Assembly (NCBI RefSeq): GCF_015351245.1
Contig: NZ_JADKSO010000004.1
Coordinates: forward strand, 186,001 to 250,000
DNA from: Rathayibacter sp. VKM Ac-2879
GTDB taxonomy: Bacteria; Actinomycetota; Actinomycetes; Actinomycetales; Microbacteriaceae
Direction: 5' to 3'
Length of the DNA: 64,000 nucleotides
The notes beneath the pieces are model-generated. The model saw only the letters and a list, made by a program, of their open reading frames with translations, did not search any database and was not told the DNA's origin. Both the position numbers and the translations under genes were made by a program. Shown here one piece after another: positions 3,847 to 59,820 of the stretch (positions are counted from its first letter, which is position 1; each line of letters begins with the position of its first letter).

Positions 3847-3864
3847 CGGGGTGGCCTCCGCCGA

Positions 3865-3894
3865 TTGGCGCGACCTCGGACGGTCGTCTACACT
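3865..3894 (+). promoter_or_regulatory. promoter of tRNA-Ser
   Basis: TTGGCG at 3865-3870 and TACACT at 3889-3894 are separated by 18 bases and end seven bases before the tRNA 5' end. This is a good fit to a housekeeping sigma promoter. Confidence 0.6.
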
Positions 3895-3901
3895 CGACCC
3901 C

Positions 3902-3991
3902 GGTACCGTGTCCGAGCGGCCGAAGGAGCATGTCTCGAAAACATGTGTGGGCTTGCGTCCACCGTGGGTTCAAATCCCACCGGTACCGCCA
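3902..3991 (+). tRNA. tRNA-Ser (anticodon CGA)
   Basis: The acceptor arms GGTACCG (3902-3908) and CGGTACC (3981-3987) pair perfectly. The anticodon stem CATGT/ACATG encloses the loop CTCGAAA, giving anticodon CGA, which reads the UCG serine codon. The long variable arm between the anticodon and T arms is the class II feature expected of tRNA-Ser, and the T loop GGTTCAAATCC is standard. The terminal CCA is encoded (3989-3991). Confidence 0.95.
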
Positions 3992-3997
3992 CCGTGA

Positions 3998-4030
3998 GGC
4001 CCTCTACTTCCCCGGAAGTAGAGGGCCTTT
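3998..4030 (+). terminator. intrinsic terminator after tRNA-Ser
   Basis: A 13-bp perfect stem (3998-4010 with 4015-4027) with a four-base loop CCCG, followed by TTT. It lies seven bases beyond the encoded CCA, so it most likely ends the tRNA transcript. Confidence 0.85.
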
Positions 4031-4119
4031 CGTCGCTCCCGGCACACGGTCGTCCTGGCGCATCGGCCACCGCGACGGCGATCAGACCGTCCCGCCCATC
4101 GCTGGCCCGTCGGCAGCGG

Positions 4120-5232: not shown

Positions 5233-5284
5233 GGAGTCCTCGGGTCGGCTTCCGAGCAGCGCCGGCCGGAGAAGTATTTCACGG

Positions 5285-5306
5285 GTAAACTACTTATAGT
5301 GTATAC
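5285..5306. promoter_or_regulatory. MarR leaderless promoter and candidate operator
   Basis: TATAGT at 5295-5300 ends six bases before the MarR ATG (5307), so the mRNA should begin at or next to the start codon. The same stretch is an imperfect inverted repeat (GTAAACTAC at 5285-5293 against GTGTATAC at 5299-5306), as expected if the regulator represses itself and the divergent FUSC gene. It is AT-rich compared with its surroundings. The promoter is supported by spacing; the operator is inferred. Confidence 0.5.
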
Positions 5307-5813
5307 ATGAAACAGTTCGCCGGCGATGCCGTTGACGCGATCCGGGACGGCTGGTCGGCCTTGCGACCCACCCTCGACACCTCGGCCATCGACGTCGTCG
5401 GTCGGCTGATCCGCGCGTCCGCCCTTGTGGTGCGCGCGACCGAGGAGCGCCTCCTTGAGCACGGTCTCACCCGCGGCGAGTTCGACGTGCTGGCCGCGCT
5501 ACGGCGGTCGGAGGCGCCGCTCTCGCCTACAAGCCTGCGTACCGTCGCACTCGCCTCCGCACCCGCGATCACCAAGCGCCTGCACGCCCTCAGGGGACGG
5601 GGCCTGATCGTGCGCTCGGCGAATCCCTCCGACGGACGCGGTGCGCTCATCAGCCTGAGCGGTACCGGGGTCGAGCTGATAGACCGCGCCTTCCCGGAGG
5701 TCCTCTCGGTCGAGCAGGCCCTTCTTGCGGGCGCGTCGAGGCGTCAGCTCGAGGAGGCGACCCGGGCGCTGCGGATCGTGCTCGCGAGCATCGAGAGTGC
5801 GGCCGAACGGTGA
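5307..5813 (+). CDS. MarR-family transcriptional regulator
   Basis: A 168-residue protein with the MarR winged-helix layout: a helical N terminus (dimerisation), GLTRGEFDVLAALRRSE (helix leading into the HTH), a recognition region LRTVALASAPAITKRLHALRGRGLIVRS, and the wing motif NPSDGRGALISLSGTG. The DGR-containing wing is the best family signature. Such proteins usually sense phenolic or toxic ligands and derepress efflux genes. Here FUSC-family transporter genes lie on both sides, one divergent and one 29 bp downstream on the same strand. Confidence 0.9.
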   Translation: MKQFAGDAVDAIRDGWSALRPTLDTSAIDVVGRLIRASALVVRATEERLLEHGLTRGEFDVLAALRRSEAPLSPTSLRTVALASAPAITKRLHALRGRGLIVRSANPSDGRGALISLSGTGVELIDRAFPEVLSVEQALLAGASRRQLEEATRALRIVLASIESAAER

Positions 5814-5842
5814 CGCGTTCCGCTGCTCGCTAGCGTGGACCC

Positions 5843-6883
5843 ATGCGTCTGACCTCGAGCTTCACCGTGGCGACGAGGCCGCCGCTGCTGCAGCTCGTGA
5901 AGACGGCTGTCGCTACGGTGACGACCTGGATCATCGCCGCGCTGGTGTTCCCCGGGACGCTGCCGGTCTTCGGGGCGATCGCGGCGCTGCTCGTGGTCGC
6001 GCCGAGCGTGAACCAGTCTTTCTCGAAGGCCTTGGAGCGCAGCGTCGGAGTGATCATCGGTGTGGTCGTCGGCTCGATCATCGGCACCCTCTTCGGTAGC
6101 GAGAGCGCGATCGTCCTCCTCGCGATCGTGGCCGCGATCGTGGTGGGCTGGGCGGTGCGGCTCACGCCCGCCTCCGCCGTGCAGATCCCGATCAGCGCGA
6201 TGTTCGTGCTCTCCGTGGGCTCGGTGACGCCCAACTATGCGGCCGATCGGATCCTCGAGACACTGGTGGGCGCGCTCATCGGCGTGATCGTGAACGGCCT
6301 CATCGTGCCTCCCGTGGCTCTTGCGCCCGCGGAGCGCGCGGTAGGCGACCTCACTGCGCAGCTCGCCGGGGCCCTCGATGACCTGGCCGACGCCCTGCAG
6401 GAGCCGGTGCCCAGCCGTCGCCTGGACGAGCTGTTGATCAATGCGCGTCTGTTGCAGACCATGCAACGCAAGGCCGAGGAGGCGATCGGTACCGGCGCGG
6501 AGTCGCTGCGGCTGAACCCGCGCCGTTCCGCGCACCGGGATCGTCTCGGCGCCCTGGACTCCGTGATGCCCCGGCTGGGGCGGATCGTCACCCGTGTGCG
6601 CGGGATGACGCGGACGGTCCACGATCTCTACGACGCCGAGCTCATCGACGAGCCGACGATCGCCGACATCGCGGTGCAGTTGCATCGCGCGGCGCACGAT
6701 CTCAGGCTGCTGGTGCAATCGGCGGTGGCGATCCCTGAGCCGGAGGCGATCACCGACGAGATGCCGGCGCTCACGGCGCCCCTCGTGATCGTGACGCCGC
6801 ATCCGCAGCACTGGATCCTGCTCGGGGCCCTCGCCGAGGATCTGCGGCGGATCCGCGAAGAGATCGTCGGCGAGGAGTCCTGA
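5843..6883 (+). CDS. FUSC-family membrane protein
   Basis: A 346-residue protein. An N-terminal membrane half has hydrophobic helices at about 18-45, 60-85, 95-115 and 125-155, followed by a helical cytoplasmic half rich in Arg and Leu. The pattern PVFGAIAALLVVAPSVNQSFSKALERSVGVIIG is typical of FUSC proteins. TAGCGT (5831-5836) ends six bases before the ATG, so it has its own leaderless start despite following the MarR gene. It is convergent with the hydrolase at 6890 with only six bases between the stops. It differs in sequence from the FUSC protein at 4120, so it is not a recent duplicate. Confidence 0.75.
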   Translation: MRLTSSFTVATRPPLLQLVKTAVATVTTWIIAALVFPGTLPVFGAIAALLVVAPSVNQSFSKALERSVGVIIGVVVGSIIGTLFGSESAIVLLAIVAAIVVGWAVRLTPASAVQIPISAMFVLSVGSVTPNYAADRILETLVGALIGVIVNGLIVPPVALAPAERAVGDLTAQLAGALDDLADALQEPVPSRRLDELLINARLLQTMQRKAEEAIGTGAESLRLNPRRSAHRDRLGALDSVMPRLGRIVTRVRGMTRTVHDLYDAELIDEPTIADIAVQLHRAAHDLRLLVQSAVAIPEPEAITDEMPALTAPLVIVTPHPQHWILLGALAEDLRRIREEIVGEES

Positions 6884-6889
6884 ACGGCG

Positions 6890-7981
6890 CTAGGACGAGT
6901 CGTCGTGGAGGAGGGAGGGTTGCTCGCGTAGTGCCACCGGGTCGCTCGCCTCCGCATGCTGGGTCTTGCCCTCGGCGATGAGCGAGTCGTCATCGACGAG
7001 GATTCCGGTGAGCTCGGTGAGGCGGCCTCGAAGGGCGCCGATCGGATCGGGACTGGAGGCGTCGTCCTCGTCCGGACGGTCGACCTCGGCGTCGGGATAC
7101 CGCCGGACGGCCGCCTCGTCAGGGTCAGGTCGGGGGGCGCGTGCGTGCTCGACGCAGAGGCGCGCGACCTCCTCCGCGTGGGCGTGCATCACGGAGTGGG
7201 AGGCGCCGGGGACCTCCCACGCCCGCGCATGCGGGATCGCGTCGGCGATCTCCTCCGTCCATTCCCGCGGCACGAGACGGTCGAACTCGCCGCGGATCAC
7301 GAGCGTCGAGGCGCGAATCAGCGGCACTGTCTGCTCGATCGGGTAGTGCATCATCGCGGGGAGGACGCGGGAGAACCAGCGTGGGCCGCAGAGCACGTAG
7401 GCCGCGGCGGCGAGCACGGCGACCTTGGGAGGCTCGCGAAGGCTCGACTGTGCGAACCGCAGCGCCGCGACCGGGACGCTCCGCTCGCGCCGATTCATGA
7501 CGGGACCGAGTAGGACGATGGTCGTCAGGTCGGGCCTCCGCGCAGCGAGTTCGGCGACGACTTGGGTGCCCATGGAGTGGCCGAGGACGACCGGATCGTC
7601 GAGGCCGAGCTCATCGATGACCGCCCCCACCAGCTCGGCGTACTCGCCGATCCCCATCTTCTGCGTCCCGACAGGGTGCGGGACGCCGCCGAATCCCGGC
7701 AGGTCGAGGGCGTGCACTGGACCGAATTCGTTGAGCGCGGGAGCGAGCCGCTCGAAGTAGGTGGCCGCGACTCCGATGCCCGGCACCAACACGAAGGTCC
7801 GCTCACCGTCGCGCCCGACGGTGCTGACCCGCGCCCAGACACCGTTGTGGTGCACGCGTTGGACCGAGACGTCCGTAGCGCGGTATCGACGTCGTGGGTC
7901 GCGTCGGCGGGAACGCGCAGTCGACACGATGTCTCGGAGTCCGCGGCGCAGCGTCGGCAGGATGTCGCTCGGACGGAGCAT
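6890..7981 (-). CDS. alpha/beta fold hydrolase
   Basis: A 363-residue protein with VLVPGIGVAATYFERLAPAL (oxyanion strand), the nucleophile elbow LGHSMGTQ, an Asp in IRGEFDRLVPREW, and a His in PGASHSVMHAHAEEVA, so the Ser-Asp-His triad is complete. An acidic 80-residue C-terminal tail beyond the fold (from about residue 280) is unusual and likely disordered. The ribosome binding site AAGGAGG precedes ATG 7981. Substrate unknown. Confidence 0.82.
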   Translation of the reverse strand: MLRPSDILPTLRRGLRDIVSTARSRRRDPRRRYRATDVSVQRVHHNGVWARVSTVGRDGERTFVLVPGIGVAATYFERLAPALNEFGPVHALDLPGFGGVPHPVGTQKMGIGEYAELVGAVIDELGLDDPVVLGHSMGTQVVAELAARRPDLTTIVLLGPVMNRRERSVPVAALRFAQSSLREPPKVAVLAAAAYVLCGPRWFSRVLPAMMHYPIEQTVPLIRASTLVIRGEFDRLVPREWTEEIADAIPHARAWEVPGASHSVMHAHAEEVARLCVEHARAPRPDPDEAAVRRYPDAEVDRPDEDDASSPDPIGALRGRLTELTGILVDDDSLIAEGKTQHAEASDPVALREQPSLLHDDSS

Positions 7982-48927: not shown

Positions 48928-49156
48928 GTGCCGCTCACCTTCGCCGTCTGCGCAGGCTGCGTGGCTCACTGCCTACGCAGGGGTCGTCATCGGCGGGCTG
49001 GCGTTCGGGGCCGGCCTGTTCGCCGTCCCCATGATTGTCGGGATGTTTGTCGTGCAGCTCGCCGCAAAGGGTCGGAGGCGTCGACCAAGCCGACCGCCCG
49101 ATAACGATCAGTTTCGAGCGATTGAGGGAACCTACAAAACCGGCACCCACAGGTAA
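48928..49156 (+). pseudogene. frameshifted small membrane protein remnant
   Basis: AGGAGG (48912-48917) precedes GTG 48928, which opens PLTFAV and then runs into unlikely sequence. One base later the neighbouring frame gives AQAAWLTAYAGVVIGGLAFGAGLFAVPMIVGMFVVQLAAKGRRRR in pieces that form one long TM segment, a basic flank and then DNDQFRAIEGTYKTGTHR to TAA at 49154. I infer a one-base shift near 48950. The last 20 codons overlap the repeat at 49099-49134. Upstream, 48663-48927 holds no gene I can support. Confidence 0.4.
49099..49134 (-). repeat. module-boundary repeat, copy E
   Basis: On the minus strand this 36-bp stretch carries CGAAACTGATCG (49104-49115). It matches copy D (57263-57298) over 36 bases with about six mismatches and an exact 20-base run. 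It lies 75 bases ahead of the metallo-hydrolase gene. Confidence 0.65.
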
Positions 49157-49208
49157 GAATGCCCGTCGCGCCGGTCACCGCGACAGACTGGCCTCATAAA
49201 CTTGCCGC

Positions 49209-49949
49209 ATGAGCGCGCCGAATCTCCGACAAATCGCACCATCGCTGTACCTCCTGCGTCTTGAAGGTCCGGCTCACCTGCTCAACGTCTACATCTGGGA
49301 CGAACCTGACGGCGTGACGCTCATCGACACTGGGTGGGCGTCCAGCGCGCGCGACATCGAAGCCGCACTCCACACCGTCGTCCGCTCACGGAGCGACGTG
49401 CGACGAATCATCCTGACCCACTTCCATAATGACCACACCGGGTCGGCATCTGAGATAGCGGCCTGGGGTGACGTTGAAGTCATCGCAGGGCGTGGTGACG
49501 TGGCTTTCATCGAGGGAACACAGCGGGGCCCGATTGCAGCCCTCACGAGCAAAGAGATCGCCCTAATAGGCGAGGTAGCCGAGCCTCCCCATGGGCCAGC
49601 CTGCAACGTCAGCCGAACCGTGAGTGATGGGGATGTTCTCGACTTCGCGGGCGGGGCACGCATCATTGCGGTGCCCGGACATACCCCAGGAAGCATTGCC
49701 GTCTATCTGCCCGAAGCATCTGCAATCCTGACCGGTGACGCCGTTGCTGAACTCAATGGCAATGTCATTGTGGGTATCTTCAACACCGATCGCGACTCGG
49801 CTGTGCGATCCCTCCGCGCACTCTCTGCAACAGGCGCAGAGGCAGCGGGTTACGGCCATGGCGAGCCGTCCCTTGCCAATGCCCACCAACACATCGCGAC
49901 TGCACTCGACTTGTTTGCAGATGACCCGACCGGCGAGGATCGCGCTTGA
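49209..49949 (+). CDS. MBL-fold metallo-hydrolase
   Basis: 246 residues. Metal-binding motifs of the metallo-beta-lactamase fold are complete: THFHNDHTG (HxHxDH), the His in PGHTPGSIAVYL, the Asp in LTGDAVAELNG and the final His in GYGHGEP. The opening IAPSLYLLRLEGPAHLLNVYIWDEPDGVTLIDTGW is the standard first strands. It is probably a cytoplasmic Zn hydrolase of the glyoxalase II-like group; substrate unknown. It stands alone between repeat copies E and A. Confidence 0.92.
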   Translation: MSAPNLRQIAPSLYLLRLEGPAHLLNVYIWDEPDGVTLIDTGWASSARDIEAALHTVVRSRSDVRRIILTHFHNDHTGSASEIAAWGDVEVIAGRGDVAFIEGTQRGPIAALTSKEIALIGEVAEPPHGPACNVSRTVSDGDVLDFAGGARIIAVPGHTPGSIAVYLPEASAILTGDAVAELNGNVIVGIFNTDRDSAVRSLRALSATGAEAAGYGHGEPSLANAHQHIATALDLFADDPTGEDRA

Positions 49950-50002
49950 AGTCGCGGACCGTGGATTCACGCGCCCCCACCGAGGGACTCGCGTCCACCG
50001 TC

Positions 50003-50055
50003 CCGAAACTCTGGCCCGAAACTGATCGTCCCGTAAACAGGTTTCGATACGGCAC
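50003..50055 (+). repeat. module-boundary repeat, copy A
   Basis: A 53-bp stretch containing CGAAACTGATCG (50017-50028) and ending GGTTTCGATACGGCAC. It matches copy C (55955-56003) in inverted orientation with about 88 percent identity and one gap. The copy has its own inner palindrome, CGAAAC...GTTTCG. Confidence 0.75.
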
Positions 50056-50204
50056 ACGTTTGCGGCGGGTCCATCGCTGTGAATCGCGGAGATAACTGTC
50101 GTGGTTGTCGCGCTGCTTCGTGTTCACGACGCGGCCGGGTTCCGCGGACATGCGAGACGCGATGCACTGAGCGCCTTGACGGATTGTGCTACCGAACGCA
50201 TAGT

Positions 50205-50235
50205 CTGGTCTTTATTGATATTCAATAAAGACCAG
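50205..50235. promoter_or_regulatory. 31-bp near-perfect palindromic operator
   Basis: CTGGTCTTTATTGA (50205-50218) and its exact complement (50222-50235) around TAT. AT-rich in a GC-rich setting, and 14 bases ahead of the GTG at 50249. It is most likely the operator/promoter bound by the XRE protein encoded second in the operon. Confidence 0.75.
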
Positions 50236-50248
50236 ATCGGATGAGTTC

Positions 50249-50875
50249 GTGAAAGTTCAACAGAGCTATGTCGTAGCCGGCCGTGTTGCCCTGGTCACGG
50301 CGATAGCCGTGACCATCATCTGCGCTGCGGTTGCCACTGTGTTCGCCGTCGGGCACCTGGTTGAGGCGATGAGCGGTCGGGCGGTGGTCACCGTGCCAGC
50401 GCTCTCCACTATCGCGCCGGGAAGCATCGGGCCTGATGTGGAGTGGGCACGCTACGCGGGTGTGACGATGTTCGTCACTGACACCGCGGATGCGAGTGCG
50501 TTCTTGACGGGTTCGGCGCTGCTGTCACTCGGGTCAATTCTGACCGGTGGTGCGGCCCTCGTTCTCCTCTGCGTCAGCCTGTTGCGGACGCGTCCGTTCG
50601 ACGTGTCAGTGATCGTCGCCTGGTTCGTGGCGGCGGTGGTCACGCTGGCGTCGGGGATCGCGGGGCCACTAATGCGCGGGCGGGCGATTGAGCGCATCGT
50701 GCAGTCGTTGCCGGCACCAGCGCCTTCCGATCTGATCGGTCGCGGCGACACGGCTCTCTACGTCGCGCACGAGCTGGCTGCGCTTCCGTTGCTCGCGGGT
50801 GGGGCTCTCGTCTTGGTCGCCGTCGCGCTCACCGTGGCTCGCAAGCTCCGTCGCGACGCCGACGGGATCGTTTAG
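50249..50875 (+). CDS. four-TM membrane protein (DUF2975-like) paired with an XRE regulator
   Basis: 208 residues from GTG 50249 with four hydrophobic helices (ALVTAIAVTIICAAVATVFAV, LLSLGSILTGGAALVLLCVSLL, VIVAWFVAAVVTLASGIAG, LAALPLLAGGALVLVAVALTV). The arrangement and the XRE gene sharing its stop codon (TAGTG) resemble the DUF2975/YozG-type membrane protein and regulator pairs. The DUF2975 label is by context and topology only. Confidence 0.7.
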   Translation: MKVQQSYVVAGRVALVTAIAVTIICAAVATVFAVGHLVEAMSGRAVVTVPALSTIAPGSIGPDVEWARYAGVTMFVTDTADASAFLTGSALLSLGSILTGGAALVLLCVSLLRTRPFDVSVIVAWFVAAVVTLASGIAGPLMRGRAIERIVQSLPAPAPSDLIGRGDTALYVAHELAALPLLAGGALVLVAVALTVARKLRRDADGIV

Positions 50876-51144
50876 TGCCATCCGCAGGAGCTCCTGACCG
50901 TCATGTGCATTGCCGGCTGACGGAACTGCTCGACGAGCGCGGAATGAGCCTCACCGAGCTCAGCGAGCGGGTTGGAGTTACTATCGCAAATCTCTCGATC
51001 CTCAAGAACGACCACGCCAAGGCGATCCGCTTCACGACGCTCACCGCCATCTGCGATGTCCTCGACTGCACGACGGGGGAGCTCTTCGTGATCGTCCCTG
51101 GACCACTCCCCGCGCGCAAGAGGCGGAAGGGCGCTCCCAAATGA
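50875..51144 (+). CDS. XRE-family regulator (YozG-like)
   Basis: Up to 89 residues. LTELLDERGMSLTELSERVGVTIANLSILKNDHAKAIRFTTLTAICDVLDCTTGELFVI is a complete Cro/CI-type HTH closely resembling YozG-like partners of DUF2975 membrane proteins. The start is GTG 50875, overlapping the upstream stop, or GTG 50905, which would begin at the usual family N terminus. It probably binds the 31-bp palindrome at 50205. Confidence 0.88.
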   Translation: MPSAGAPDRHVHCRLTELLDERGMSLTELSERVGVTIANLSILKNDHAKAIRFTTLTAICDVLDCTTGELFVIVPGPLPARKRRKGAPK

Positions 51145-51920
51145 CGCTAACCATCGCTCGAGCCTCTCTTGACGTCGACGTCGCGCGCTGTCTGACTGGT
51201 GATATGACAAGCGACGCGGTTCTCGATTCCGTCCGGCTCCTGGCGCGTGCGGCGGCGACCGAGGAGTTGCTGTCGGACGTGGACTCGCTGTCCGCGGGGA
51301 TCACTGCGGCCGGGTGGGTTCGCAATGTGAATGGGGGCCAGTGGTCGCGGGAGGGACAACCTGGCTGGTCCCTGTTCTCCAGTGATCACGCACCAGGCCT
51401 GGCCGTCTTCCTCTCTGACGATGACGTCCAGGTGGTCTACGCCTGCGGCCAGGAGCTCGCCCGACGTCTCGATCGCGAAGAAGGGTTGCGGCGCCACGGC
51501 GCGGACCCCGGCTGGCCGGACTGGGCACGGGAGGATCCGCGGTGGACCGACTGGTCCGGCCTCGAGGCCGACTGGGTGACCTGGCACGGCGGACCCGCAC
51601 GCGTCTCACTGAACGTCAGGCCCGCCTACCAGCCCGGCAGGATTGTGGAGCCACCCCACCTCCACTTCCAGATCGAACGCCTCGACACCCCGTCGGATGG
51701 GCTGCCGGAGGACGACGAGCACGATCGGCTCGTCGCCCGCACCGGATCGTCTCTCGCCCGCTGGCACCTGGCAGGAAAGATGCGACTACCCGATGACGTC
51801 GTACGAGCACTCGAAAAGGATGACGATCCCGCAATCGTCGCGGCCGTCAAAGGGTACGAGAAGTTCCGCAACGCCGACACGAAGTGGAGAGCATCACTTG
51901 TCGAGAACGAGCAAGCCTGA
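51141..51920 (+). CDS. hypothetical protein, third gene of the XRE operon
   Basis: 259 residues. ATG 51141 overlaps the XRE stop (ATGA), so translation is coupled. The protein is soluble, acidic and Trp-rich in the middle (PGWPDWAREDPRWTDWSGLEADWVTWHGG), with a helical end (DPAIVAAVKGYEKFRNADTKWRASL). No family recognised. After it, 51921-52090 holds nothing I can support. Confidence 0.65.
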   Translation: MTLTIARASLDVDVARCLTGDMTSDAVLDSVRLLARAAATEELLSDVDSLSAGITAAGWVRNVNGGQWSREGQPGWSLFSSDHAPGLAVFLSDDDVQVVYACGQELARRLDREEGLRRHGADPGWPDWAREDPRWTDWSGLEADWVTWHGGPARVSLNVRPAYQPGRIVEPPHLHFQIERLDTPSDGLPEDDEHDRLVARTGSSLARWHLAGKMRLPDDVVRALEKDDDPAIVAAVKGYEKFRNADTKWRASLVENEQA

Positions 51921-52090
51921 CTCTTCCTAGTCGGTGCCAGGTCGGAACCGCCCCCGCATGGGCCTTACTATCCTCCGCTGCAAGCGTCCCAACTGCCCCG
52001 CCCCTCGATAGTCGAGACACCGAACGGCGCGAAAAGGCCGCCACGCAGCGCCGCAGTTCACAGTCCATCGCTGACCGCTTCCAAGTAACC

Positions 52091-52110
52091 CCGTAAACGA
52101 TCGTTTCCGG
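52091..52110. repeat. module-boundary palindrome, copy B
   Basis: CCG, one base, the perfect palindrome AAACGATCGTTT (52095-52106), one base, CGG. It resembles the GAAAC-GATCG core of the longer copies, but is shorter and more symmetric. It lies one base beyond the TetR stop, between the XRE operon and the TetR block. Confidence 0.55.
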
Positions 52111-52111
52111 T

Positions 52112-52645
52112 CTACTGAGCGCGAAGGCCATCGAGGATGAGCTCGAGCATGTGCGAAGATCGATCCCCAGGTCCGGGCGCCGCCCGCCAGAGCGCACCGG
52201 TGAGTTGAAGGAAGTCACCGGGCTCCGCATCGGCGCGGATGGCTCCTGCCTCCTTCCCAGCGTCGAGCAGCATCCCAATAGCCGCCACCACAGGACCGTA
52301 AGTCTGTTCGTTGATCGCCTGATGAGCACCAGGGCTCAGAGCATTGCCGAGCCCATGCTTTCTCCGCATCGCTTCAACAAGCCCCACCGTCCACGCGCGC
52401 AGCGCGTCCCGCGGAGGTAGCTCATCCAAGAGCGTCGGCGCTGTATCGACGATCCGCGCCACCTCGTCCTGGTAGACGGCCAGGACCAGAGCCTCGCGGG
52501 TCGGATAGTTGCGGTAGAGGGTGCCCGCGCCGACGCCGGCGCGTTGAGCGACCTGGTTCATCGACGTTGCACCGTCCTCACCGAACGCCTCGCGTGCCGC
52601 GGCGAGGATGCGTGCCCGATTCTCTCGGGCGTCGGAACGAACCAT
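52112..52645 (-). CDS. TetR/AcrR-family transcriptional regulator
   Basis: 177 residues. The HTH reads RILAAAREAFGEDGATSMNQVAQRAGVGAGTLYRNYPTREALVLAVYQDEV (TLYRNYPTR signature). The C terminus resembles the SbtR-like TetR_C group (HMLELILDGLRAQ end). It is divergent from the aldo/keto reductase gene, with two palindromic sites between them. Confidence 0.92.
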   Translation of the reverse strand: MVRSDARENRARILAAAREAFGEDGATSMNQVAQRAGVGAGTLYRNYPTREALVLAVYQDEVARIVDTAPTLLDELPPRDALRAWTVGLVEAMRRKHGLGNALSPGAHQAINEQTYGPVVAAIGMLLDAGKEAGAIRADAEPGDFLQLTGALWRAAPGPGDRSSHMLELILDGLRAQ

Positions 52646-52665
52646 GGGAACCTCATCTTGCTAAC

Positions 52666-52702
52666 TGGAGACCTCTCCACTAGATTAATGGAGAACTCTC
52701 CA
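52666..52702. promoter_or_regulatory. two tandem TetR operators
   Basis: TGGAGACCTCTCCA (52666-52679) and TGGAGAACTCTCCA (52689-52702) are perfect palindromes apart from their two central bases, 23 bases centre to centre, in the 76-bp divergent gap. The spacing (about two helical turns) suggests that two TetR dimers bind on nearly the same face and control both genes. Confidence 0.8.
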
Positions 52703-52721
52703 CATCCTACAGAGGAGCACC

Positions 52722-53768
52722 ATGGAATACACCAAACTCGGCATTACCGGCCTCGACGTGTCACCGATCGCCATCGGCGCGATGACCTACGGCGAGCCCG
52801 ACCGCGGCCACCCCGTCTGGTCCAAGGACGAAGACGAGGCCCGTCCGCTGATCAAGCACGCCCTCGACGCGGGGATCAACTTCTTCGACACCGCGAACAT
52901 GTACTCCAACGGGTCGAGCGAGGAGATCCTCGGCCGGGCCCTCAAGGACTACGCGAACCGCGACGACATCGTGATCGCGACGAAGCTGCGCCACCCAATG
53001 CGCCCGGGCCCGAACGGGAAGGGCCTGTCGCGGAAAGCGATCATGACCGAGGTCGACCACTCCCTCGAGCGCCTCGGGACCGACTACATCGACCTGTACC
53101 AGGTGCACCGCAACGACCACGCCACACCGCTCGAGGAGACCCTCGAAGCGCTCAGCGACCTCGTGAAGGCCGGCAAGGTTCGCTACCTCGGGGCGTCGTC
53201 GATGTTCGCGTGGGAGTTCGCGAAGGCGCTCCACCTGCAGAAGACCAACGGGTGGGCTCGGTTCGTGTCCATGCAGGACCACTACAACCTCCTCGCCCGC
53301 GAGGAGGAGCGCGAGATGATCCCGCTCGCCCTAGACGAGGGTGTGGGCACGATCATTTGGAGTCCGCTTGCTCGCGGTCGTCTGGCCCGCGGCTGGGACA
53401 ACGCCCGCTCGACGGCCCGCTCCGACTCGGACGGCGACTACGCCGACATGCTCTACTCGCCCGCCGAGGAAGAGTCGAACCACCAGATCATCGACGCCGT
53501 CGGGCAGGTGGCCGAGCGCCACGGCGTCAGCCGCGCCTCGATCGCCCTCGCCTGGCTGCACGCTCAGCCGGTCGTCACCGCACCGCTCGTCGGGGCCGGT
53601 TCCACGGAGCAGATCGATGACGCGATCGCGTCGCTCGATGTGCAGCTCACCGACGGCGATGTCACGGCGCTAACTGCCCCGTACACGCCCCGTTACGACT
53701 GGCAGGGTGTCTCCGACGAGGCCACGATGAACGCCATTCGCGCCCGTGTCCCCGGCATGAAGCTCTAA
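52722..53768 (+). CDS. aldo/keto reductase
   Basis: 348 residues. The catalytic tetrad is Asp and Tyr in FFDTANMYSNGSSEE, Lys in VIATKLRHP and His in YQVHRND. The C-terminal NADPH motif is LVGAGSTEQID. It resembles YajO/AKR11-like enzymes that reduce small aldehydes. AGAGGAG precedes ATG 52722. First gene of a three-gene block under the two TetR operators. Confidence 0.92.
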   Translation: MEYTKLGITGLDVSPIAIGAMTYGEPDRGHPVWSKDEDEARPLIKHALDAGINFFDTANMYSNGSSEEILGRALKDYANRDDIVIATKLRHPMRPGPNGKGLSRKAIMTEVDHSLERLGTDYIDLYQVHRNDHATPLEETLEALSDLVKAGKVRYLGASSMFAWEFAKALHLQKTNGWARFVSMQDHYNLLAREEEREMIPLALDEGVGTIIWSPLARGRLARGWDNARSTARSDSDGDYADMLYSPAEEESNHQIIDAVGQVAERHGVSRASIALAWLHAQPVVTAPLVGAGSTEQIDDAIASLDVQLTDGDVTALTAPYTPRYDWQGVSDEATMNAIRARVPGMKL

Positions 53769-53916
53769 CGAGTCCCCGCATCCGTTCCGGCGCGGCCACC
53801 CCGCGCCGGAACGGCGCTCTCCCTGGCTCCGGCGTGATCGCCGCCCGCCGCCCGCACCCCAGAAAATTTTCAGCTCGCCGTTTCGGCGCACTCTTCACGA
53901 TTTCAGGAGACACAAC

Positions 53917-54939
53917 ATGGCACAGGTACTCGTCACCGGCGGGTCCGGATTCATCGCGAGCTGGTGCGTCCTCCAGCTGCTCGAGGCCGGCCACACCGTC
54001 CGCACCACCGTCCGCAACCTCGCCCGCGAACCGGCGCTCCGCAAGCAGCTCCACGACGCGACGAACTTCCCCGACGACCACCTCGAGGTCGTCGCGACCG
54101 ACCTGCAGATCGACACCGGATGGGCCGACGCGGTTGCCGGGTGCGACTTCGTTCTCCACGTCGCCTCACCGACGCTGCGGAACGCGGGTGCGACCGAGGA
54201 CGAGATGGTCGCCGCCGCCCGCGACGGCGTCCTCCGCGTGCTGCGTGCCTCGCGTGACGCAGGCGTGAAGCGTGTGGTGCTGACGAGTGCATTCGGGGCG
54301 GTGGGCTACGGCCATCCCCGCCGGGCCGCGCCGTACACGGAGGAGGACTGGACCAACGTCGACGCGAACATCGCCCCGTACCAGAAGTCCAAGACCCTCT
54401 CCGAGAGAGCCGCGTGGAAGTTCATCGAGGAAGAGGGTGGCGCGCTCGAGCTCGCAGCCGTGCACCCGGTGGCCGTCATCGGCCCGGTCCTCGGCCCCGA
54501 CGACCCGCCCTCGCTCAGGATCATTCGCAACATGCTGAATGGCGACGTGCCGGCATGCCCGCCGTTCGGGTCGAGCTGGGTTGACGTCCGCGACGTCGCT
54601 GACCTCCACCTTCGCGCCATGACCGACCCTGCCGCCGCCGGTCAGCGTTGGCTCGCCTCGGCGGGCAAGAGCCTGCGCATCATCGAGGTAGCGCGGATCC
54701 TGCACCAGCAGCTCGGCGAACGAGCCGCGAAAGCACCCACCCGCGAGCTGCCGCTCCCTGTGGCCCGAGCCCTCAGCCTGTTCAACCCGCAGATGAAGGC
54801 GCTCCGCCCGCAGCTCGGCCGCGACTTCGACGCCACCAGCGCCAAGGCGGAACGGCTCCTCGGCTGGCACGCCCGCCCCATCGAGGACACCATCCGCGAG
54901 ACTGCCGAAAGCCTCCTCGCCCACGAGCTCGTCGACTGA
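53917..54939 (+). CDS. NAD(P)-dependent epimerase/dihydroflavonol reductase-like
   Basis: 340 residues of the extended SDR type: VLVTGGSGFIASWCVLQLLEAGHTVRTTVRN (Rossmann GxxGxxA), CDFVLHVASPTL, VVLTSAFGAVGYG (Ser) and YQKSKTLSERAAW, where the usual YxxxK catalytic motif reads YQKSK. It therefore keeps Ser-Tyr-Lys and probably reduces or epimerises a carbonyl compound with NADPH. It lies 148 bp after the aldo/keto reductase on the same strand; GGAGACAC precedes the ATG. Confidence 0.9.
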   Translation: MAQVLVTGGSGFIASWCVLQLLEAGHTVRTTVRNLAREPALRKQLHDATNFPDDHLEVVATDLQIDTGWADAVAGCDFVLHVASPTLRNAGATEDEMVAAARDGVLRVLRASRDAGVKRVVLTSAFGAVGYGHPRRAAPYTEEDWTNVDANIAPYQKSKTLSERAAWKFIEEEGGALELAAVHPVAVIGPVLGPDDPPSLRIIRNMLNGDVPACPPFGSSWVDVRDVADLHLRAMTDPAAAGQRWLASAGKSLRIIEVARILHQQLGERAAKAPTRELPLPVARALSLFNPQMKALRPQLGRDFDATSAKAERLLGWHARPIEDTIRETAESLLAHELVD

Positions 54940-55032
54940 GACCCGGCCTACCGCCATTCAGCTCGACCCGCCAACGCGGGCCGAGCCCCACTTACACAAC
55001 CACTGCACACTGCCCACCAGGAGAATCGACAC

Positions 55033-55869
55033 ATGCCCACCATCGCGTCCGGAAGCTCATCGATCTTCTACCAGGAGTTCGGCGACGCAGCGGCCCCACC
55101 GCTTGTCCTGATCCACGGACTGTTCAGTGATTCGACGTCGGTGGCCTCGCTCGCCACTGCCCTGTCGGCACGGTTCCGAGTTATCGCGCCCGACATGATC
55201 GGGCACGGGCGTTCGTCCCGGACCGAGCTGTTCACCCTCGCGGATCAGGGACGCGCGGTGAACGATCTTACGGCGGCGCTCGGGTACGAGTCGTCGGCCA
55301 TCGTGGGGATCTCGATGGGGTCCTACGTCGCCGCGCAGGCCACGATCCTCGATCCGGCCCGAACCTTCCGGCTCGTCCTCGTCGTCCCAAAGGGGCACGG
55401 CAAGACCTCGTCGGTGGCCGCATACGCGGAACGGCAAGGCATCGACCTTCGTACGGTCGCGCCCGAAGACCTCCCCAGTCTCATGGCCGACGCGCTGTGG
55501 TCGCCGTCGACGTCCCAGGAACGGCGTGACGAGATCCTGTCGGCGTCGGCCGCGAATCAGATCGTTCTCACCCCCGGCGAACAAGCCGCCGTTGAGCGGT
55601 CCTTGGCCGGCTTCGATTTGCGGCCCGAGCTGCCCACCATCACGGCACCAACACTGATCATCTCCGGCCGGGCCGACGGCCTGAACCCGCCGACCGCCGG
55701 CGAGGAGATTGCGCACCTCGTCCCCGACGCCACCTTCACGATCTACGCCAACGCCGGCCACATGCTCGCCGGCGAAGAACCCAACCGCCTCGCTGCCGAC
55801 GTTACAGCCTTCATCGACTCCCCGAGCACCTTCACGGTTAGCACCTACACCGACCAAGAGTTGTCCTAA
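55033..55869 (+). CDS. alpha/beta fold hydrolase
   Basis: 278 residues. VLIHGLFSDST (oxyanion), DMIGHGRSSRTEL, the nucleophile elbow VGISMGSYVA, an Asp in IISGRADGLNPP and a His in NAGHMLAGEEP give a complete triad. AGGAGAA precedes ATG 55033. Last gene of the TetR-controlled block. With the two reductases it suggests stepwise handling of a carbonyl/ester compound, though the substrate is unknown. Confidence 0.9.
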   Translation: MPTIASGSSSIFYQEFGDAAAPPLVLIHGLFSDSTSVASLATALSARFRVIAPDMIGHGRSSRTELFTLADQGRAVNDLTAALGYESSAIVGISMGSYVAAQATILDPARTFRLVLVVPKGHGKTSSVAAYAERQGIDLRTVAPEDLPSLMADALWSPSTSQERRDEILSASAANQIVLTPGEQAAVERSLAGFDLRPELPTITAPTLIISGRADGLNPPTAGEEIAHLVPDATFTIYANAGHMLAGEEPNRLAADVTAFIDSPSTFTVSTYTDQELS

Positions 55870-55954
55870 CGCCCGCCGCACGCGCGGAAGCAACCACAAA
55901 CGATCTTTTCTGGGGCATGCCGGGGCGGTCAGAGGAAGAGCGGCCCACAAAGGG

Positions 55955-56003
55955 GTGCCGTATCGAAACCAGTTACGGGACGATCGGTTTCGGACCGGAG
56001 TTT
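55955..56003 (-). repeat. module-boundary repeat, copy C
   Basis: On the minus strand it carries CGAAACCGATCG (55981-55992) and matches copy A at about 88 percent in inverted orientation. A shorter related site, AAACGATCTTTT, lies at 55898-55909. Together they separate the TetR block from the CBU_0592/LysR block. Confidence 0.75.
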
Positions 56004-56022
56004 TGGGAGGCAGGCCGTTAGG

Positions 56023-56286
56023 TCACGCGCGAGGCTGTGACTCCGTGCGGCGTCGTCGGCTTTGGATGAGTCCTACGAGGCCGATTCCGAACCAGACCAG
56101 GTTGAGCGCGGCCGACGGCCACGCTGAGTAGTACGCGGTGTTGAGCATCAACGCCAGGCCGCCGATGAGGTTCATGGTCTGGTAAACCCAGCCTCCAACG
56201 CTGAGGCGGCGGGCGGTCAGCAGGGCGTATGCCGCCAGCAGCAGGATCGTACCCGTCCATCCAATGATCCCGATCAGCAATTCCAC
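56023..56286 (-). CDS. CBU_0592-family membrane protein
   Basis: 87 residues from GTG 56286 with ACGGAGGACAGC ahead. The pattern IGIIGWTGTILLLAAYALLTARRLSVGGWVYQTMNLIGGLALMLNTAYYSAWPSAALNLVWFGIGLVGL is that of the small three-TM CBU_0592 family, whose function is unknown. It is divergent from the LysR gene at 56373. Confidence 0.85.
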   Translation of the reverse strand: MELLIGIIGWTGTILLLAAYALLTARRLSVGGWVYQTMNLIGGLALMLNTAYYSAWPSAALNLVWFGIGLVGLIQSRRRRTESQPRA

Positions 56287-56372
56287 GCTGTCCTCCGTGT
56301 CTCTGTTTCCAGGAGAATGACATTCATCAGGACTTATCTGGTATCCGCTTCTTGTGAAGCACCGGTGAAGGG

Positions 56373-57266
56373 ATGCTTATGGACGTCGATGTGCCGCGAT
56401 TGATGGTGTTGCGTGCCGTGCGGGATGCAGGGGGCGTGCTCGCCGCAGCAGATGAGCTGCATGTCAGTTCCTCCGCGGTGTCGCAACAGCTCTCCAAACT
56501 CGAACGGGAAACCGGCCTGGCTCTCGTGGCGCGAGGCGCGAACGCACCTGTCCGCCTAACTCCTGCCGGCAGGCGACTGGCCAAACGCGCCGACGCAATT
56601 GCCGCCGAGCTCCGATCAGCTCGACGCGACATCGCGCAGCTCGCAGATCAGCAGCAGCGAACGGTCCGAGTGGGCGCTTTTCCATCCGCCCTTCAAGCAC
56701 TCGTGATACCCGCAGCAGCCGCGCTCCGTTCGTCCGGGTTCGATGTGCAGGCGATAGAGACCCGCGACGAGACGGCGACGCTCGATTCCCGGCTACGCAG
56801 CGGCGACCTCGACGTAGTTGTCATCAAGCAAGACGGCCCCCAGCCGTCGGCCGACGGCATCACGGAAACCGTGGTGCTCGATGATCCCTACCGCGTTGTG
56901 ATTCCAACGGCCTGGACGACTCCGGCCAGCTTCACCGACTTGCTCGATCGCCCTTGGACAGGCCACCCCGCGGGATCACCCGGACGGGCCGCGCTCGAAC
57001 GCCTCGAACGGCAAGAGGGAACCGCGCTACGCATCGAGCACGAGTGCACCGAGTACCCCGTCGCGATCGCCCTGGCCGCAGCCGGCCTGTCTGCGAGCAT
57101 CGTCCCTCAACTCGTTTTGACCGTGATGCCACACGAGGGCATTCGAGTGGTCGACCTTGCGGACGTCGGATCGCGTCGGATCGTCGCTCGGCAGCGGGAC
57201 ATGCCGGAATCGACAATCGCGATAGACGCTGTGCTCGACCATCTGCGACACCGGCCCATCTTGTAG
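56373..57266 (+). CDS. LysR-family transcriptional regulator
   Basis: 297 residues. The HTH reads PRLMVLRAVRDAGGVLAAADELHVSSSAVSQQLSKLERETGLALVARG. The effector domain starts near residue 90 (TVRVGAFPSALQALVIPAAAALR). Start at ATG 56373 or ATG 56379. Its likely target is the divergent CBU_0592-family gene. The stop overlaps the first bases of repeat copy D. Confidence 0.92.
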   Translation: MLMDVDVPRLMVLRAVRDAGGVLAAADELHVSSSAVSQQLSKLERETGLALVARGANAPVRLTPAGRRLAKRADAIAAELRSARRDIAQLADQQQRTVRVGAFPSALQALVIPAAAALRSSGFDVQAIETRDETATLDSRLRSGDLDVVVIKQDGPQPSADGITETVVLDDPYRVVIPTAWTTPASFTDLLDRPWTGHPAGSPGRAALERLERQEGTALRIEHECTEYPVAIALAAAGLSASIVPQLVLTVMPHEGIRVVDLADVGSRRIVARQRDMPESTIAIDAVLDHLRHRPIL

Positions 57267-57317
57267 GTTTCCGCAATCGCTCGAAACTGATCGATTCCGG
57301 CACAACTGTCGACGGCA
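57263..57317 (+). repeat. module-boundary repeat, copy D
   Basis: It contains CGAAACTGATCG (57282-57293) and ends CGACGGCAC, like copy A, while its left part (57263-57298) matches copy E in inverted orientation. Another GTGCCGAAACCCTG lies at 57338-57351. This is the copy nearest the VbhA-Fic-resolvase operon and the best candidate for a resolvase-bound site. Confidence 0.65.
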
Positions 57318-57440
57318 CCGCGGCGACGTTGACACGCCGTGCCGAAACCCTGTGCCAAAACCACCCATGGTCCAAAACCCAATTCGACCGTTTTCGGCCC
57401 ATAAATGGTAGAATCGAAGCACGTCACGAGAGGGGCAACC

Positions 57441-57638
57441 ATGGTCCGCACACTCATCGCCGCACCGCCGGCACAGGCCGCCGCTGCCGACCGTCTGGCG
57501 TTCGCGGATGCAGCGCTCGCGCTGGCTGGCCACGAGGTCACCGACCCGGCGCTACGCGCCATCGTTGAGCAGGCCGCCCGCCATGAGCTGACGGGGGATG
57601 AGGCGCGCGCTGCGATCCGTCGCCACGTCCAGGGCTGA
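57441..57638 (+). CDS. VbhA-like antitoxin
   Basis: 65 residues from ATG 57441 with AGAGGGG ahead; the frame is open 12 codons more. The sequence AFADAALALAGHEVTDPALRAIVEQAARHELTGDEARAAIRRHVQG is the VbhA pattern: an inhibitory helix with the ALAGHEVT motif, whose Glu would block the ATP site of the Fic partner, and a second helical hairpin. It overlaps the Fic start by one base (TGATG). Confidence 0.85.
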   Translation: MVRTLIAAPPAQAAAADRLAFADAALALAGHEVTDPALRAIVEQAARHELTGDEARAAIRRHVQG

Positions 57639-58477
57639 TGCCGCGCGGCACCACTTTTCGTACCTGGGATGACTACTTCATCCCAGGTACTTCTGTGTTG
57701 AGGAACAAGTTCACCGCTCCCGGCAAGCCGCACGGCGAACCCGACCCGAACAAGCTCCGCACGTTGGAGGAGGCCTTCGCGCACACGCGCATCCAGGAGC
57801 TGCGCGAGAACCCGCTACCCGGACGGTTCGACTACGACCACATGAAGGCGATCCACGGGTATGTGTTCCAGGACGTCTACGAGTGGGCCGGTCAGGAACG
57901 GGTGGCTCCGGCGGGGCAGTTCATGACGAAGGACGGGCACGCCTACTACGGCGCCGGCCCTCACCTGACGGCGGCCGCGGAGGCCGAGTACGCCAAGCTC
58001 GCCGGCAAGGACTACCTGCGCGGGCTGACGCAGGCGAAGTTTGTCGACGAGCTCGCGGAGAGCTGGGGGGAGCTGAACGTCATCCATTTCGCGAGGGAGG
58101 GCAACACGCGCACACAGTTCGTGTTCTTCTCCCAGCTCGCTGAGCAGGCCGGCTACCGGATCGACGCCGCCCAGTTTGCTCCCGGCTCGCCGTTGCGGGA
58201 CGAGTTCGTGCAGGCGCGGTTCCACTCCCAGGACACCGGTCGAAATGACCAGCTCGCCGCGGTCTTGGGGAAGGCGATCACCCCTTTAGGCCGTGACGCT
58301 TCGGCGTCTCGAATGAGCGACAACGGGGTAGCCGAGGCTCTGCGCGCCAGCTTCCCCCTGAGCGCGAAGTCGGCCGTGCGTTCGACACCCCAGCCGGGCA
58401 CACGTGCTGCGGAACGGTCCTCAACGCAGCGACCCGACAGGGGAAGAACTGATACAGGACGGGGCGGGCGTGACTAA
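57638..58477 (+). CDS. Fic-family toxin (AMP transferase)
   Basis: 279 residues. The Fic core includes GRFDYDHMKAIHGYVFQDVYEWAGQERV and the catalytic motif VIHFAREGNTRTQ. His, Glu, Gly, Asn and Arg of the HPFxEGN consensus are kept, but the Pro-Phe pair reads Phe-Ala and the Gly after Asn is Thr (the latter also occurs in VbhT-like proteins). It would AMPylate a target such as gyrase or topoisomerase IV when not held by the antitoxin. A polar tail of about 80 residues follows the fold. Confidence 0.88.
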   Translation: MPRGTTFRTWDDYFIPGTSVLRNKFTAPGKPHGEPDPNKLRTLEEAFAHTRIQELRENPLPGRFDYDHMKAIHGYVFQDVYEWAGQERVAPAGQFMTKDGHAYYGAGPHLTAAAEAEYAKLAGKDYLRGLTQAKFVDELAESWGELNVIHFAREGNTRTQFVFFSQLAEQAGYRIDAAQFAPGSPLRDEFVQARFHSQDTGRNDQLAAVLGKAITPLGRDASASRMSDNGVAEALRASFPLSAKSAVRSTPQPGTRAAERSSTQRPDRGRTDTGRGGRD

Positions 58478-58715
58478 TCCGATGACCACTCGATTCGATA
58501 TCGAGCAGCGATGGCCGGAGTTGTTTGATGGCCTGACCAAGACGCAGCGTTGGTCCATCGTGCAGTCCCTCGCGGCGGCGTGGCATGAGGGATGGGAACC
58601 GAACCGCGCCGACGCAGCCAACCTCACCGACTTTGTCGCCGGTCGGATCGACGATGCAGAGTACACCCGCCGATCGCATGCTTTGGCTGAGCGCGTGCGG
58701 GGGAGTGCTCAGTGA
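58470..58715 (+). CDS. small VbhA-family-like protein
   Basis: 81 residues from GTG 58470 (overlapping the Fic stop by eight bases) or 77 from ATG 58482. The sequence FDIEQRWPELFDGLTKTQRWSIVQSLAAAWHEGWEPNRADAANLTDFVAGRIDDAEYTRRSHALAER resembles small proteins commonly called antitoxin VbhA-family in actinobacteria. If so, the operon would hold two antitoxin-like genes around one toxin. It overlaps the resolvase start (GTGA). Confidence 0.7.
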   Translation: MTNPMTTRFDIEQRWPELFDGLTKTQRWSIVQSLAAAWHEGWEPNRADAANLTDFVAGRIDDAEYTRRSHALAERVRGSAQ

Positions 58716-59296
58716 ATGTCATCGGTTACGCCCGAGTGTCGAAGCGTGAGCAGAACCCTGCCGCTCAGGAGGCCGAGCTACGCGCAGCGGGAGCCGTGCG
58801 TGTGTTCGTCGACCACGGCGAGTCGAGCCGCATCGCAGACCGCCCTCAGTGGCTCGCCTGCCTCGACTACCTCAACGAGGGCGACACCCTCCTGGTGCGT
58901 CGCCTCGACCGGCTCGGAGGGTCGGAGCGGATCATCATCGAGACGCTGCACGACCTCGACCGCCGAGGGGTGAACATCAAGAGCCTGACGGAACCGATGA
59001 TCGACACCACTACCCCGATGGGCCGCGCCCTGTTCGGCATGGTCGCCGTGTTCGCGCAGCTCCGCGTCGACACGATCCGGGAGAACACGATGCGCGGCCT
59101 CGCACACGCGAAGTCGCAGGGGAGGGTCGGGGGCCGGCCGTCGAAGATGACGCCGGAGAAGATCACTCAGGCGCAGCGGATGCGCGCCGAGAACCGCAGT
59201 CTCGACCACATCGCCGGGGTGCTCAGCGTCGGGAAGTCGACCGTCGCCCGCGCCCTCAGCAAAGCCGATCAGGAACTCACCCAGGCTCAGCGGTAG
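58712..59296 (+). CDS. serine recombinase (resolvase/invertase)
   Basis: 194 residues from GTG 58712. The catalytic domain has the nucleophile Ser in GYARVSKREQN (residue 9 or 10), LLVRRLDRLGGSERIII and GRALFGMVAVFAQLRVDTIRENTMRGL (the E helix). The C-terminal HTH is GGRPSKMTPEKITQAQRMRAENRSLDHIAGVLSVGKSTVARALSK. This size and order match small resolvases and DNA invertases. It is the fourth gene of the VbhA-Fic operon and the likely enzyme for the repeat family at 49.1-57.3 kb. Confidence 0.93.
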   Translation: MNVIGYARVSKREQNPAAQEAELRAAGAVRVFVDHGESSRIADRPQWLACLDYLNEGDTLLVRRLDRLGGSERIIIETLHDLDRRGVNIKSLTEPMIDTTTPMGRALFGMVAVFAQLRVDTIRENTMRGLAHAKSQGRVGGRPSKMTPEKITQAQRMRAENRSLDHIAGVLSVGKSTVARALSKADQELTQAQR

Positions 59297-59705: not shown

Positions 59706-59820
59706 CGAACGTCGTCGCTACGCCAGGGTGTCGAAGCGGGATCAGACCCCGGCAGCGCAAGAGGCCGAGCTGCGCGCCGCGGGGGCTGTCCGAAGACAAC
59801 CCATCCGGATGCAGCAATAG
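59702..59820 (+). pseudogene. 5' fragment of a second resolvase gene
   Basis: ATG 59702 opens TNVV, and after a one-base loss the frame continues YARVSKRDQTPAAQEAELRAAGAV, matching residues 6-29 of the resolvase at 58712 almost exactly; then the similarity ends. It is a truncated, frameshifted copy, which suggests the intact resolvase block has been duplicated or has replaced an older one. Confidence 0.8.

Follow-up and report, generated by a model that had tools for sequence, protein, structure and literature searches.

The stretch of DNA analysed here, referred to as the window, comprises 64,000 nucleotides of Rathayibacter sp. VKM Ac-2879 (contig NZ_JADKSO010000004.1, positions 186,001 to 250,000), and this analysis concerns a family of short palindromic sequences that lie at 49.1-57.3 kb, between the gene blocks of an island and next to a gene for a small serine resolvase. 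Comparison with other genomes makes it very probable that these palindromes are copies of the crossover site of the resolvase, site I, and that such copies bound swappable gene modules. The original prediction, made from the window alone, had described sites bound by the resolvase at which blocks of genes were acquired like cassettes, in a system that would not need a tyrosine integrase (no search for such integrases was made), and it gains comparative support from the borders of homology at the sites, from the constant distance between the site and the resolvase gene in eight loci (-136 or -135) and from the layout of res, the recombination region beside this gene.

Palindromic sites in the window and in other genomes

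The exact core CGAAACYGATCG occurs four times in the window, at 49105-49116 (E, minus strand), 50017-50028 (A, plus strand), 55981-55992 (C, minus strand) and 57282-57293 (D, plus strand), with no fifth copy anywhere in the 64 kb; plain arithmetic with equal base frequencies gives a chance expectation of about 0.015. With up to two mismatches, 30 matches were found, compared with 17.5 ± 3.9 in shuffled sequences (largest value 26). The positions of the long copies were confirmed, apart from the core of E, which had been placed one base off at 49104, and the predicted alternation in orientation was observed as well: E, A, C and D read -, +, -, +, with E and D forming one inverted pair (47 nt, 83%) and A and C another (45 and 30 nt, 82-87%). 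Two shorter palindromes, B and one in the region of 55898-55909, also lie where they had been expected. A scan with a position weight matrix derived from sites of other genomes (threshold 14, plus the exact core) marked six places only, all within 49.1-57.3 kb and all between genes taken as real, which agrees with the claim that the sites separate functional blocks, and the serine resolvase described beyond D is present as a gene with a PF00239 domain at 58712-59296, past VbhA and Fic. E and D additionally carry a conserved tail of 33 bp, named here the D-type tail.

Considered over all genomes, the site is an imperfect palindrome of about 28 bp, CYCGCCGNAAACGA followed directly by TCGTTTNCGGCRRG, whose AT centre lies within GATC. 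This consensus is based on 108 distinct sites, minus those at locus ends, with the count symmetrised, and individual sites, B among them, are palindromic by themselves. Plasmids of Microbacterium and Janibacter contain the D-type sequence TTGTAGGTTTCCGCAATCGCTCGAAACTGATCG as well, and its 20-base end was found in 11 stretches of the GTDB genome set, among which the tail is much alike and the sequence to the right diverges directly after GATCG. Records with D-type sites also hold B-like palindromes. A match in Nocardia (L007) comprises the 20 bases without the remaining tail and is probably due to chance. A full D-type site at 3734-3753 of L012 lies on a contig labelled as a Planctomycetota metagenome-assembled genome, perhaps a misbinned actinobacterial contig or the result of a distant transfer. 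The sequence CCGNAAACGATCGTTTNCGG had no exact match among viral contigs and the D site had no match in phages; a plasmid search with the 30-base consensus resulted mainly in weak Rhizobium matches.

The pattern CCGNAAMYGATCGWTTNCGG, with at most one mismatch, was detected in 82 of the 247 Microbacterium genomes, with as many as 16 copies in a single genome, and its reversed control pattern in 0 of 247; at the level of the order, the counts were 45 and 2 of 396 genomes, respectively. The places listed in the Microbacterium genomes are mostly clustered, and 165 of the 247 genomes are site-free. A strict gene caller, which called 57% of the bases coding, placed 128 of 129 sites between genes, and a looser one, with 78% called coding, placed 126 of 157 outside and 31 inside predicted genes. 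On annotated plasmids, 15 of 15 sites are intergenic according to the gene tables, which are incomplete (a weak Cryobacterium plasmid match was left out). A count of recurrent gene families near the sites was swamped by antisense open reading frames.

Short, repeated and mostly intergenic palindromes are also what could be expected of dispersed repeats similar to repetitive extragenic palindromic (REP) sequences or miniature inverted-repeat transposable elements, whose conserved palindromes would allow modules to be exchanged through homologous recombination. REP-like elements had been named as the alternative from the beginning, but this explanation is very improbable and was rejected. Instead of being scattered over the backbone, the copies are confined in the window, clustered among the places listed and absent from 165 Microbacterium genomes, and they mark breakpoints rather than being unrelated to block borders; the fixed distance to the resolvase gene and the half-site exchange centred on the core, both described below, also speak against it. 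The shared core is moreover short for RecA, which counts against homologous recombination in the palindromes.

Module borders and half-site exchange

Borders were analysed in 91 loci (duplicates L009, L074 and L093 dropped) using 686 alignments of at least 200 bp and at least 75% identity, which provided 1306 usable ends. For 78 of these ends, both loci have a site no more than 20 bp away, as opposed to a mean of 0.04 for random positions (maximum 2 in 500 draws) and of 0.26 for random intergenic positions (maximum 4). When the loci picked for their resolvase were left out, 38 of 282 ends were at sites, and an earlier count with 73 loci had given 39 of 333. Borders that coincide with sites in related genomes are what the original prediction had called for. 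If the palindromes were binding sites of a regulator or a partition protein that lie between operons by chance, their mostly intergenic position with both gene callers would be accounted for, but the breaks in homology (78 ends against 0.26 expected) and the half-site exchange would be left unexplained, which makes this possibility very improbable.

Six alignments, which represent four distinct modules of 2.1-7.5 kb, extend from site to site in both loci and are found in different contexts. These are an ABC-F/MFS block of 3272 bp, shared with 99.7% identity between a Janibacter plasmid and a Microbacterium contig (L002/L014), a module of 7041 bp (L052/L063), a module of about 7540 bp with three alignments (L055/L058/L060) and a module of 2115 bp (L061/L073). 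In L117, the 7.5-kb module, which is also present in three other genomes, starts exactly at the res of such a resolvase. Presence and absence of a module was seen in one case, within one genome (L075 and L076), in which one flank is just 80% identical and begins about 50 bp from the site. The cargo found elsewhere includes GNAT, MFS, glyoxalase, SDR, methyltransferase, HIT and AFG1 proteins, a heavy-metal ATPase together with DUF305 and a metal-sensitive repressor, and an ABC transporter with an MFS protein. On the Microbacterium plasmid pSGAir0570_2 (L139), which has seven sites, multiubiquitin, E2 and ThiF-like genes lie close to each other at 5353-7433 as a ubiquitin-like operon.

The position of the crossover was examined with 156 sites for which full flanks were available, a left flank of at least 85% being regarded as similar and a right flank below 50% as different. 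Similarity switches at the site in 48 site pairs, and two pairs are similar on both sides. All 12 pairs with a left flank of 100% have an identical 14-bp left half-site and a different right half; among the 48 pairs, the left half is identical in 33 and the right half different in 48. Divergence begins at the second base to the right of the centre in L002/L014 and L061/L073, and in the D-type pairs an unusual CTGA to the left of the centre is common to both members, therefore the exchange was placed around the central AT. Between site D of the window and L092, the res side is 88% identical and the module side 12%. By comparison of the loci, both the module borders at the sites and an exchange of half-sites around the centre can be recognised.

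The serine resolvase, its res and the proposed mechanism

The window resolvase (58712..59296, plus strand), the presumed actor on the sites, contains the PF00239 catalytic domain (E 6e-37) and weak HTH_38 and HTH_7 matches under their cut-offs. The closest solved structures, found by phmmer over most of its length, are Gin invertase and gamma-delta resolvase, and the catalytic serine is presumably the one in the YARVS motif. A matrix was trained on 87 sites in loci that do not belong to the resolvase set (one of these loci, L003, has a res-like flank) and used to scan up to 3 kb upstream of relatives of this resolvase in 43 rows (L093 is the same plasmid as L006), and 21 of them have an upstream site with a score of at least 14. 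Relative to the resolvase gene, the 28-mer is positioned at -136 or -135 in eight loci (L098, L099, L101, L102, L103, L109, L118 and L119), and 1.1-1.6 kb upstream, with a Fic homologue between, in ten (the window, L069, L076, L089-L092, L094, L115 and L117), D being at -1435 relative to the window resolvase. The remaining site-positive rows are L116 and the truncated L046 and L080. In the latter two (at about 3682-4065 and 5039-5425, respectively), resolvase genes without their N-terminal part lie beside intact sites and appear as broken island copies. Of the rows without a match, L104 and L108 have a palindrome of related sequence around AAAACCGATCGGTTT.

The interval from site I to the first gene contains an array of mostly direct half-sites, whose letters resemble, by eye, the right half of the neighbouring site I; in L115 and L076, array and site share the GCTCA type. 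In five further plasmids from three families, the site is located just upstream of the operon in four: those of Microbacterium BDGP8, Microbacterium TPU 3598, Miniimonas and Xylanimonas show the same layout of site I and array, with no additional site at a score of at least 8. In the Leifsonia plasmid, of whose 52.7 kb the first 50 kb were covered, the array has been kept and site I is missing at this place. Within the genus Microbacterium, sites are present in 23 of 36 genomes with the resolvase and in 59 of 211 without it (p = 7.5e-5), where presence means at least 60% identity, fragments included. A palindrome of about 28 bp with an AT centre has the size and shape typical of site I of serine resolvases. 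Taken together, the catalytic domain, a weakly matched C-terminal HTH, a site of about 28 bp with a 2-bp centre and accessory half-sites beside the gene are all found, and the comparison supports the identification of the palindrome as the crossover site I of the resolvase at 58712-59296.

In the mechanism that we favour, the resolvase would be encoded beside its own res, consisting of site I (D) and an accessory array, most likely for the resolution of plasmid multimers, and extra copies of site I without a resolvase gene of their own would divide the cargo into modules. The enzyme would pair two sites, cut both at the central AT and rejoin them with the half-sites swapped, and by integration, excision, inversion, or formation of a cointegrate and its resolution at another pair, modules would be added, removed or swapped, both orientations being allowed by the palindromic AT centre. 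A plasmid would provide the enzyme in trans, and modules that lie in chromosomal islands lacking a resolvase would be trapped. That the resolvase performs these steps, their topology and their occurrence in this window are what we infer from the comparison. With moderate confidence, a general form of gene capture by a plasmid multimer resolvase can be proposed, in which site I is a portable exchange point and cassettes that have a D-type tail and an accessory array of their own are mobilised in trans among the plasmids and the chromosomal islands found in Microbacteriaceae and neighbouring groups.

Several observations weigh against the favoured mechanism. The 1306 alignment ends are interdependent and form 124 clusters, 19 of which are at sites. 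A likelihood split placed the switch at -1 to +1 in only 4 of the 48 pairs, a low number because conserved core letters past the centre match anyway and pull the switch rightward. Resolvases usually require full res sites, whereas in many modules the site has no accessory array beside it, and efficient use of such sites by classical resolvases would not be expected. No site was found in 22 of the 43 resolvase rows (five with less than 1.6 kb of upstream sequence, and two rows representing one plasmid). In a search for counterparts of 49060-57340 in 366 genomes of the genus, in which two candidate places per genome were scored and the metallo-beta-lactamase (MBL) module was not searched alone, the matches listed are gene homologues with 65-79% identity, and the LysR module gave one match (67%) in 359 genomes of the family at E <= 1e-30; within these searches, the modules of the window were thus not encountered in other genomes. 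Finally, 59 of the 82 site-bearing Microbacterium genomes have no resolvase of at least 60% identity, so that another enzyme or a lost plasmid must be invoked.

These 59 genomes would fit real crossover sites that are worked by a different serine recombinase, the resolvase next to VbhA and Fic only resolving multimers. A candidate is encoded in L072 at about 4245-4960, a distant serine recombinase with 36% identity and a site centre 150 bp before its start, which may act at this type of site; alternatively, the site may mark the border of a module. This alternative is unlikely, as the matrix of module sites retrieves the same site as site I of the present resolvase family, both in the 21 rows and in four of the five further plasmids, and the module that L117 shares with three other genomes begins precisely at the res of such a resolvase.

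Organisation of the island and comparison with known systems

A and C belong to a class of elements with the order CCCGAAACT-CCCGAAACC-CCCGTAAC-GTTTCGATACGGGAC, similar to the res accessory array of L094 and TPU 3598. A loose array pattern gave 25 matches, of which 17 were aligned and eight left out (duplicates, res arrays and weak ones). A palindromic site I lies 103-105 bp from the array start in 10 of the 17 (one with a low score of 10.4), and 13 of the 17 have no GATCG centre, which rules out that all four long copies represent one site family. From the earlier view of a shared family, the common exact core has thus been retained, whereas E and D are now assigned as crossover sites and A and C as accessory arrays. 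Judged by their sequences, the crossover sites of the window are E, B, 55903 and D, with A and C mainly accessory arrays; the palindrome 55903 is the array-linked site I of C, and none is left for A.

Being symmetric, the core carries no polarity. By our own reading, 14 of the 19 distinct tails of D type have an array opposite them in inverted orientation, 0.5-2.6 kb away. As exceptions, the array-like match in L002/L014 is weak and misplaced, the array of L094 is the res array, and L008, L076 and L078 have none. This anatomy indicates that some modules are compact cassettes with two different ends, a D-type tail on one side and an accessory array with site I on the other. The MBL and LysR modules of the window would be two such cassettes in opposite orientation, which would therefore give the alternating inverted long copies. 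A single transposon bounded by the inverted repeats E/D or A/C was ruled out, because these ends sit on separate cassettes in other loci. Res-like arrays by a D-type site were also noticed at about 3000-3240 in L014 and 830-900 in L017; they appear as orphan res regions in 8-kb loci that lack homologues of the resolvase, of Fic and of VbhA.

The termini TGTGGAGTT or TGTAGATCG are located in or beside accessory arrays of L001 (3330), L017 (218 and 892) and L011 (1738 and 4131), and tniR-tniA adjoin an array in L001, lie about 1.2 kb from the D-type site in L008 and about 3 kb from res in L006. These observations would be expected from Tn402/Tn5053-like res-hunting transposition, in which elements insert near res, the blocks are cargo or remnants and the palindromes only mark the target. 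It is nevertheless quite improbable as an explanation of the modules, since a search that, among transposase families, covered tniA alone found homologues in just 3 of 73 loci and the module ends fall inside the palindrome with half-site exchange, not at an element end with a target duplication outside. The arrays may themselves be targets of res-hunting transposons, which would independently suggest that they are res.

The predicted crossover site E (49094..49137, minus strand; centre 49107/49108) is the outer end of the MBL-hydrolase module, and its D-type tail TTGTAGGTTCCCTCAATCGCTCGAAACTGATCG is of a type also present in L001, L002, L008-L017 and others. The cargo of this module is a hydrolase with metallo-beta-lactamase fold (49209..49949, plus strand, PF00753), and its inner end is formed by element A, an accessory half-site array according to the alignment of arrays (50002..50066, plus strand). 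From the offset in the aligned arrays, the site I of A itself would be expected near 50105 and is decayed or lost. Gene calls and Pfam matches indicate that the block between A and B (50249..51920, plus strand) encodes an unknown protein, an XRE-type regulator (HTH_26) and a further unknown protein. Site B, a predicted palindromic crossover site (52087..52114 with flanks), contains CCGTAAACGATCGTTTCCGG at 52091-52110 with one of ten positions unpaired. It is followed by module cargo with Pfam matches, namely a TetR regulator on the minus strand, an aldo/keto reductase, an NAD-dependent epimerase and an alpha/beta hydrolase (52112..55869). The stretch from TetR to the aldo/keto reductase (52119-53759) is 81% identical to a 1.16-Mb replicon of Streptomyces chartreusis; the match starts about 18 bp from the centre of site B and may reflect gene-level homology.

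The predicted palindromic crossover site 55903 (55890..55917) has a matrix score of 17.6 and an offset of 104 from the start of C; its palindrome at 55894-55913 is weaker than that of B. Element C, assigned by array alignment as an accessory half-site array inside the LysR module (55943..56007, minus strand), is inverted relative to A, and the cargo of the module is a small protein on the minus strand, which had been described as CBU_0592-like and has no Pfam match, and a LysR regulator on the plus strand, recognised by Pfam (56018..57266). Site D (57261..57304, plus strand), according to the matrix match and the locus comparison, is the predicted crossover site I of the res of the resolvase; the comparison with L092 assigns its left half and tail to the LysR module and its right half ATTCCGGCAC to the res region. 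The putative res accessory array (57331..57400, plus strand) lies directly before VbhA and contains, by eye, the half-sites GTGCCGAAACC, GTGCCAAAACC and GTCCAAAACC and the inverted ACCGTTTTCGGCCC. It is followed on the plus strand by a VbhA-like antitoxin (57405..57638), which has an annotated homologue in plasmid H1/L006 and no Pfam match, by a Fic-domain protein (57638..58477, PF02661) and by the resolvase. Downstream of the resolvase, 59719-59793 is 81% identical to the start of its gene (58727-58800) and appears as the remnant of a second resolvase copy.

Small serine resolvases such as gamma-delta/Tn3 and Sin have a site I of about 28 bp and accessory half-sites beside their gene, and res is a hotspot for transposons. 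The present system resembles them in the serine resolvase located by a res with a site I of this length and accessory half-sites, and differs in that many lone copies of site I bound cargo and that arrays also occur inside cassettes. Its protein and predicted site anatomy make it a resolvase/res system, in which the dispersed modules are the new feature. In integrons, the recombinase is a tyrosine integrase and each cassette has a single attC; promiscuous small cargo and a recombinase acting in trans are similar, whereas here a copy of site I lies at each end. Xer recombinases and integrons, both tyrosine systems, are known to exchange modules at short sites, and no description of a serine-resolvase module system was present among the literature matches listed, which comprised titles and beginnings of abstracts, with subscription journals largely outside the scope. 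If the favoured mechanism is correct, a resolvase, usually viewed as a plasmid housekeeping enzyme, shuffles modules, which would explain the spread of accessory genes (metal, transport, detoxification and drug-export-like) among Gram-positive soil bacteria, and the motif would allow module borders to be read directly from sequence.

Among serine enzymes, the nearest precedent is the staphylococcal Bin, which inverts or deletes DNA between copies of res, extra copies arriving with Tn552-like transposons (PMC3276174). Like Bin, the present system would involve an enzyme of the resolvase family that rearranges DNA at copies of res, and unlike Bin, it comprises many unrelated cargo modules. The dif (pdif) modules of Acinetobacter have XerC and XerD arms with a 6-bp spacer and depend on tyrosine recombinases (PMC13141974). 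Common to both are discrete cargo between short sites, a varying order and context, crossover within the site and shuffling between replicons (PMC13141974). Here, the six alignments of four modules likewise show cargo bounded by sites in different contexts, but XerC and XerD arms with a spacer are not found; the site forms a symmetric palindrome around 2 central bp and is linked to a plasmid-type serine resolvase and its res. As the sites are symmetric, the C/D alternation rule of pdif modules need not apply, and the system would, if confirmed, be the serine-recombinase counterpart of dif modules and integron cassettes.

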